Positions 18,331 to 19,145 of a stretch of 64,000 nucleotides of DNA are shown one piece after another; position 1 is the stretch's first letter; each line of letters starts with the position of its first letter. The translations under genes were made by a program, and so were the position numbers. This DNA comes from Noviherbaspirillum pedocola (GTDB lineage: Bacteria > Pseudomonadota > Gammaproteobacteria > Burkholderiales > Burkholderiaceae_D). The stretch covers positions 992,001 to 1,056,000 of the forward strand of contig NZ_JAEPBG010000001.1 in the NCBI RefSeq assembly GCF_016632335.1, in the 5' to 3' direction. The notes beneath the pieces are model-generated. The model was not told the DNA's origin, did not search any database, and saw only the letters and a program-made list of their open reading frames with translations.

Positions 18331-19041
18331 ATGTCCCAGCTCTGGCAGGCCCGTTTCTTCACTACCGTCAATCATCTGCGCGATCTGCCGAAGACGCAGG
18401 TTCCCGAAATCGCCTTCGCCGGCCGCTCGAACGCGGGCAAGTCCACTGCGATCAATGTGCTGTGCAATCAGAAAAAGCTTGCGTTCGCGTCGAAGACGCC
18501 AGGCCGCACGCAGCACATCAATTTCTTTTCGATAGGCGGCGCCCATGTTGGCCAGCATCGCAAGGATGAAACCCGCGTCGATGAAATCCGCGCGCTGCTG
18601 GTGGATTTGCCAGGCTATGGCTACGCGGAAGTGTCCGGTGACGCGAAGATTCACTGGCAGAACCTGCTCGGGGACTACGTCGCGCGGCGCGAGCAGTTGG
18701 CAGCGCTGGTGCTGATCATGGATGCGCGCCGCCCGTTCACTGAGCTCGACGTCCAGATGCTCGAGTGGTTCGCCCCGACCGGCAAGCCCATTCATTGCCT
18801 GCTGGCCAAGGCCGACAAGCTCAATCGCAACGAATCGACGAATGCGCTGCGCGAAACACGCGCCGTGCTGTCGAGCTATGCGATGCCGGATGGCTCGCCC
18901 TACCCCGCGACGGCGCAACTGTTTTCGGCATTGAAGCGCACCGGGCTCGATGAAGCCACCGAGAGAATCGAGGCGCTATTGCACTTGAACGAGCCGCAAG
19001 CGTCGGCATCTGAAGACGAGTCCGCTGAAGGCCAGTCATAA
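18331..19041 (+). CDS. engB: Ribosome biogenesis GTPase YsxC/EngB
   Basis: EngB is a TRAFAC GTPase needed for large ribosomal subunit assembly. The 236-residue product has the P-loop GRSNAGKST (31-39), switch region [12 protein letters not shown]3 [10 protein letters not shown] and G4 KADKLNR. The C-terminal tail is acidic ([10 protein letters not shown]). A TACAAT (18278-18283) upstream could be its -10, with no clear -35. Confidence 0.95.
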
Positions 19042-19074
19042 AAAAACCCTGGAGAAAGGGGAGTATCTCCAGGG
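19040..19074 (-). terminator. Strong minus-strand rho-independent terminator
   Basis: A 9-bp perfect stem with a 10-base loop is followed on the minus strand by seven T (19040-19046 on plus read as A). It begins at the last bases of engB. In the plus direction the stem is preceded, not followed, by the A/T run, so it fits minus-strand transcription better than engB termination. Confidence 0.75.
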
Positions 19075-19145
19075 TAGTAACGCCTCATCGTTAGGAACGA
19101 TAGGCCCCGCTCAGGGAGGAGAAGCGGGAGGCACTTGACGCACCT
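19040..19145 (-). ncRNA. Candidate small RNA with C-rich loops, antisense to the engB-hemB gap
   Basis: The minus strand carries three hairpins in a row and no gene. First, a 6-bp stem (19123-19128 with 19106-19111) shows TCTCCTCCCTG in its loop, an anti-Shine-Dalgarno type motif. Second is a 6-bp stem (19096-19101 with 19087-19092). Third is a 9-bp stem (19066-19074 with 19047-19055) followed by seven T, a textbook terminator. No minus-strand gene lies between it and prx 2.4 kb away. The layout resembles CcsR-type and other Hfq-dependent RNAs with C-rich loops. I see no clear promoter, so transcription is inferred. Confidence 0.4.

Follow-up and report, generated by a model that had tools for sequence, protein, structure and literature searches.

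The gap between engB and hemB in a 64,000-nucleotide stretch of the Noviherbaspirillum pedocola genome (hereafter, the window) carries an intrinsic terminator on the minus strand, and this locus raises the question of which RNA ends there, from which promoter it would be made and what it would do. The engB gene (ysxC, 18331..19041, plus strand; the name engB is taken from the initial annotation, which was made from the sequence alone) encodes a ribosome-binding-type GTPase (Pfam MMR_HSR1) and is convergent with the RNA, its stop codon overlapping the T run of the terminator. The hemB gene (19224..20240, plus strand, with the likely start ATGTCC at 19224) encodes delta-aminolevulinic acid dehydratase (Pfam ALAD) and is divergent from the RNA, the putative promoter of which sits within the hemB upstream region. 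The closer minus-strand open reading frames lie opposite hemB and a CorA-like gene, and the nearest upstream one judged to be a gene, encoding a peroxiredoxin-like protein (21447-22085), is 2.3 kb away (2.4 kb in the initial annotation).

Direct reading of the sequence confirms the three consecutive minus-strand hairpins, ending in a 9-bp stem and seven T, that had been described for this gap. Hairpin 1 (19106..19128, minus strand) consists of the stem CCCGCT/AGCGGG and the loop TCTCCTCCCTG, which is complementary to Shine-Dalgarno sequences; hairpin 2 (19082..19105, minus strand), GCCTATCGTT...AACGATGAGGC, varies in sequence among relatives; and the intrinsic terminator (19040..19074, minus strand) is formed by the 9-bp stem CCCTGGAGA/TCTCCAGGG with the loop TACTCCCCTT (19074-19047) and the run of seven T that comes next (19046-19040). 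An additional 5' hairpin, which the initial annotation missed, occupies 19129..19145 on the same strand (stem AGGTGC/GTGCCT, loop GTCAA) and is located outside the Rfam model discussed below; transcription is predicted to start at about 19145. The RNA most likely spans 19145 to about 19038, that is, roughly 108 nt with four hairpins, which is nearly identical to the interval noted originally (19040..19145). For the minus strand from 19160 to 19020, the folding energy is -52.6 kcal/mol (z = -3.3), a stability that only 1 of 200 dinucleotide shuffles reaches.

Positions 19131-19038 of the minus strand match the Rfam family RF02837, anti-hemB, with a score of 62 bits against a cut-off of 49.5. 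Thus, the RNA belongs to an already named family. This match, together with the conservation between engB and hemB, supports the candidate small RNA with a C-rich, Shine-Dalgarno-complementary loop that had been proposed for the gap; the guess was right but is not new, given that Rfam names the family and a homologue from Burkholderia cenocepacia is in print. According to the available part of PMC5688073, this homologue, ncS04, is a 105-nt RNA defined in dRNA-seq, with the 3' end confirmed by RACE, and its Hfq binding is cited there; the available part of PMC4603805 reports that ncS04 co-purifies with Hfq, and that of PMC3521395 includes B. pseudomallei among the species for which an anti-hemB is predicted. 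In the accessible text of PMC7563307, sRNAs known from B. cenocepacia were undetected in Cupriavidus metallidurans, which bears on anti-hemB only if that strain carries the gene. In a B. cenocepacia locus (L121), 105 nt counted back from the terminator lead to the base of the 5' hairpin, just downstream of TATGAT, on the assumption that the published end is at the T run and that the sequence is the same in strain J2315. The open-access literature on anti-hemB, RF02837 or ncS04, in the parts available and with supplementary target tables outside its scope, yielded no account of the timing or function of the RNA. Among open papers, which are not the whole literature, no title or abstract opening on RpoE small RNAs or Bordetella sigE links anti-hemB to sigma-E. 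The "anti-HemB" of PMC6515984 is an antibody and irrelevant to the RNA.

In its own genome, the window copy is the only RF02837 match over the cut-off, a second hit on another contig scoring 29 bits. Among 60 genomes, this one included, the family is found in 51 at an E-value of 0.001 and over the cut-off in 42. Several genomes of the window's family (G004, G006, G008, G012, G014, G020 and G021) encode RpoE and have no RF02837 match over the cut-off, which suggests loss or divergence. Two sets of copies were compared. Set one comprises 44 hits of the covariance model in these 60 genomes, the window copy included: 41 of the 42 over-cut-off hits, excluding the one in G023 that is at the first base of a contig, and three weaker ones (G017, G028 and G031), but not the additional, weaker copy of G058. 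Set two comprises 119 named loci, among the matches listed, that were collected by an exact hairpin 1 pattern, so that hairpin 1 is invariant by construction. One record in the collection (L088), a metagenome-assembled genome titled Klebsiella pneumoniae, carries a betaproteobacterium-like anti-hemB adjoining hemB and is probably mislabelled or mixed.

The conservation check in relatives that the initial annotation called for shows that the hairpins and the loop are kept beside hemB and that the stems covary by a shuffle test. In an alignment of 39 of the 44 set-one copies (L017, L031, L051, L052 and L053 were excluded beforehand), the 5' hairpin has two-sided changes in all 6 pairs, with 95.6% of cells paired, and the terminator in 6 of 9 pairs, with 88.8% paired; hairpin 1 is almost invariant, and hairpin 2 was left uncounted because its register shifts between clades. 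For the whole structure over three helices, none of 500 shuffles reaches the observed values, and slid structures pair at 34-53% compared to 93.5% for the true register. Among the 152 distinct 5' elements of both sets, 147 have a folding energy of -4 kcal/mol or below (on average -8.5, vs -5.2 for shuffles). The fourth hairpin, located 5' of the Rfam model, is therefore a feature newly identified here by computation. In set one, 42 of the 44 copies retain CCTCCC in hairpin 1, and 38 retain TCCCC in their 3' part.

With respect to transcription, the initial annotation reported no clear promoter. This stands for sigma-70, a consensus scan for which finds no minus-strand site at the window locus, but not for the extracytoplasmic function (ECF) type: a putative ECF/sigma-E-type promoter is formed by a -35 box TGAACCT (19172..19178, minus strand; GGAACTT, TGAACTT or TGAAACTTT in relatives) and, after a 15-nt spacer, a -10 box TTCATA (19151..19156, minus strand) that ends 5 nt before the 5' hairpin. 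Under a bipartite matrix trained on sites upstream of rpoE, its score of 6.07 exceeds the 99th percentile (5.13) for 690 control windows taken from the named loci; for 1347 control windows taken from the loci of relatives, it exceeds the 95th percentile (4.32) and falls short of the 99th (7.38). The window promoter is a weak version with a degenerate -35 box (GAACCT). The strict pattern GGAACTTT-N14-16-TCTNA has no match in the own genome; the pattern TGAAACTTTT-N12-15-TCTNA has one, located elsewhere and not at the RNA, and in three genomes of the same genus it is found exactly once, upstream of anti-hemB. The rpoE gene of the own genome lacks a GAACTT site.

In the relatives, a widened motif (GAAC(T/C)N or GAAACT, 13-18 nt, and TCNNA or a close variant) is present upstream of 41 of the 44 set-one copies, the window included, and in 10 of 2662 control 80-nt windows of the same loci; in set two, among the matches listed, it is found in 89 of 119 loci compared to 122 of 21350 control windows. 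The widened rule was set after the sequences had been viewed, and accordingly, these counts are not blind. The first, narrow rule is matched in 27 of the 119 loci (again among the matches listed), compared to a mean of 0.58 and at most 3 over 50 shuffles, and in none of the windows at six control offsets (113-117 windows each). In 40 of 41 set-one copies, 5 or 6 nt separate the -10 box from the 5' hairpin, with no stem found in the remaining one; among the set-two matches listed, this distance is 5 or 6 nt in 61 of 89, has other values in 8, and in 20 no hairpin is found by a simple stem rule. Boxes conserved in such a fixed register are the layout of a predicted ECF promoter feeding the RNA, and this candidate for the missing promoter, of the ECF/sigma-E type, is the other computational addition made here.

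The boxes and their spacing resemble the sites upstream of rpoE in related genomes. In the rpoE upstream regions from 30 of the 60 genomes, TGAACTT-N15-GTCAAC is present in many members of the window's family, and TGAACT(T/A)-N15/16-GTCTNN in several others. The matrix mentioned above was trained on 21 sites from these 30 rpoE loci (the rule gave no site in 7, and 2 more were unplaced) and provides a more independent test, even though the training sites were picked by a GAACT...TC pattern and its p values ignore relatedness. By this matrix, 28 of the 44 set-one copies exceed the 95th percentile and 20 the 99th percentile of 1347 control windows; for set two, among the matches listed, the respective numbers are 62 and 43 of 119, against 690 control windows. 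RpoE is detected over the family cut-off in 56 of the 60 genomes; three of the 4 genomes without it also lack anti-hemB, but these are too few to use. The GAAC sequence at -35 is common to many ECF sigma factors. Given that the own genome encodes further ECF factors as well, RpoE is the likeliest but not the sole candidate; the motif at the 5' end, by which a sigma-E-type small RNA would be recognized, is widespread in set one and weakened in the window copy, and the factor that uses it might be another ECF. In the available part of PMC3490749, the E. coli rpoHP3 promoter is reported to be used by Bordetella SigE, so that a betaproteobacterial RpoE reads this promoter class. From these comparisons, we infer sigma-E control of anti-hemB in most of the species examined.

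Taken together, the structure and the promoter make it moderately probable that anti-hemB is a trans-acting, Hfq-dependent RNA that is made on envelope stress from an ECF/RpoE promoter and blocks ribosome-binding sites via its CU-rich loops. Under this scenario, the RNA would be transcribed divergently from hemB, in most copies examined from an ECF/RpoE (sigma-E) promoter; envelope stress would free RpoE, so that the RNA accumulates; Hfq would bind through the terminal U run; and the exposed CU-rich loop of hairpin 1 would cover the ribosome-binding sites of trans-encoded mRNAs and lower their translation, the CUCCCC loop of the terminator probably also pairing with such sites. The RpoE dependence, the mode of repression and the targets are all predictions; the complementarity of the loop TCTCCTCCCTG to strong Shine-Dalgarno sequences points naturally to repression through blocked ribosome-binding sites, which is also the published interpretation for ncS27 (PMC5688073) and S17, in the available parts of the respective sources.

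A search for targets gives a limited picture. The complement of the full 11-nt loop precedes an ATG in 19 cases in the 60 genomes, compared to 1 for a control pattern; three of the 19 (L224, L231 and L235) are, judging by coordinates, anti-hemB genes read antisense and were rejected. Nine frames of more than 290 codons behind loop complements include, according to Pfam, three transport receptors (DctP and, twice, TctC), four dehydrogenases or catabolic enzymes (FMN_dh, 3-hydroxyisobutyrate-dehydrogenase type, GFO/IDH/MocA and MmgE/PrpD), one chemotaxis receptor and one familyless protein, the transport and catabolic seven being L226, L233, L236, L238, L239, L240 and L241. The nine lean to transport and catabolism, recalling the published targets of S17 and ncS27, in a set that has no background count, contains none from the window's genus and includes one frame (L232 from G020) from a genome with no anti-hemB match. 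In four genomes of the same genus, CAGGGAGGA precedes an ATG in 22 cases (control, 1), and the only such site common to all four is at an exported CrtC/lipocalin-type protein (L255, L244, L245 and L246; Pfam assignment for L255). This match counts for little because the stretch lies inside an upstream frame that is open for 500 codons and ends four codons later, and apart from this case, confounded by overlapping coding sequence, no target conserved across the genomes was found. Pairing at 23 porin starts is not stronger than at 73 control starts (p = 0.22 for one loop and 0.58 for the other) in a comparison of low power, with several of the 23 mis-called; they came from 30 porin loci, 6 of which had no start; an earlier run with only 4 porins likewise gave no support. 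In one porin gene of the own genome (L274, C16:53409), the start region AGGGAGGAGATATG can pair along almost all of the hairpin 1 loop (-20.2 kcal/mol), which is an anecdote given that porins taken together show no excess pairing over controls.

The same RNA with the same trans action might instead depend on another ECF sigma factor or on sigma-70 and function outside the envelope-stress response, which we regard as unlikely but worth serious consideration. It would fit the 9 matches to the RpoE model in the own genome, only one of which is over the family cut-off, and the box GGTATAT(C/G)AT, suited to sigma-70, that is present in 46 of the 119 named loci (among the matches listed), 28 with and 18 without the ECF-type motif. 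The locus from B. cenocepacia (L121) has the sigma-70-like -10 box only, and, in the available part of PMC5688073, the qPCR values tabulated for ncS04 in seven conditions do not change significantly; if envelope-stress control of the family were confirmed, the sigma-70-like look of the promoter in this species would offer a reason for the latter. Against this explanation stand the resemblance of the boxes and spacing to the rpoE upstream sites of related genomes and the 61 of 119 loci, among the matches listed, that carry the ECF-type motif and lack the sigma-70-like box (12 have neither). Across Burkholderia and relatives (L065 and L121 vs L069 and L073), the promoter seems to change from the ECF type to a sigma-70-like one, GGTATATGAT, by way of an intermediate, GAAACTTTT...GGTATATCATACC, that mixes the two. 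A change of sigma factor in the Burkholderia lineage can be proposed.

The position of the RNA and the name of its family bring up cis-antisense regulation of hemB, either by pairing with hemB mRNA produced by read-through from engB or by transcription that interferes with the hemB promoter. Among the matches listed, hemB is present in 146 of 161 placed loci (L043 and L053 were not placed) and is on the strand opposite to the RNA in 145 of these, the same-strand exception (L005) being a mis-placement by the search pattern; the loop usually precedes the hemB start by about 70-200 nt, and both promoters would share one short gap. Nevertheless, such regulation appears improbable because conservation of the RNA is strongest in the loops and hairpin 1, which is what trans pairing would predict, and because eight loci (L067, L071, L072, L074, L078, L099, L112 and L177) have anti-hemB and no detected hemB despite at least 1.8 kb of sequence on the hemB side. 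The degenerate window promoter could also be taken to mean that, in this organism, the locus serves only as a terminator or another structure within the engB-hemB gap and yields no functional RNA, but this is very improbable in view of the covariation over three helices that no shuffle matches, the conserved loops, and the transcription of the homologue ncS04 (PMC5688073, available part).

Thus, the trans-acting RNA made from an ECF/RpoE promoter is the reading that we prefer. We further propose, tentatively and with somewhat less than even confidence, that anti-hemB is the noncoding arm of the betaproteobacterial sigma-E response, an RpoE-made, Hfq-bound mimic of the anti-Shine-Dalgarno sequence that silences sets of mRNAs and that later acquired a sigma-70-like promoter in Burkholderia. 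What is added to the known family, namely the 5' hairpin and a predicted promoter of the envelope-stress class, conserved in fixed register across many genera, would make anti-hemB a directly testable regulator, with a testable role in the envelope-stress response.

Compared to RF02837/ncS04, the window RNA has the same sequence, hairpins and terminator, the same place beside and opposite hemB, and a score over the curated cut-off; it differs in the 5' hairpin outside the Rfam model and in the predicted ECF-type promoter, which is not mentioned in the available parts of the ncS04 literature, and Burkholderia loci such as L121 differ in their sigma-70-like promoter. The RF02278 family (ncS27) and the similar Bordetella S17 share the CU-rich unpaired stretches complementary to ribosome-binding sites but have two hairpins as opposed to four; S17, according to the part of its description that is available, is Hfq-dependent, represses transport and other genes and is processed from a longer sigma-A-type transcript. 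At the window locus, RF02278 gives no match at E-values up to 5, nor is the locus among the 21 hits in the own genome. These 21 matches to the double-hairpin "toxic" sRNA, 10 of them over the cut-off (e.g., L032-L039 on contigs C6, C10, C56 and C80), include five on contig C6, several with upstream stretches that appear similar by eye, an expansion in this genome; the other 59 genomes have 0 to 19 matches each, and the available part of PMC5688073 gives three to five RNAs of this type in Burkholderia genomes.

The likeness to CcsR/cuckoo RNAs drawn by the initial annotation extends to style but not to family: membership in the alphaproteobacterial ar14 (RF02344), which we take to be the family containing CcsR, was rejected at 26.3 bits against a cut-off of 58.8. 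In the alignment with the ar14 model, both have stem-loops that expose CCUCCUCCC-like sequence, but ar14 comes from another class of bacteria. RNAs of the ar14/CcsR type have alternative-sigma promoters that depend on a sigma factor other than the one considered here. MicA, RybB and MicL of enterobacteria and VrrA of Vibrio are sigma-E-driven sRNAs that silence mRNAs, with seeds against mRNAs of outer-membrane proteins. For VrrA, the same logic is given in an abstract, available in part. The logic of anti-hemB would match that of these RNAs; its target class is not established, and its proposed seed is the anti-Shine-Dalgarno loop. If the sigma-E reading of anti-hemB is true, betaproteobacteria have a sigma-E small RNA that acts through such a loop.
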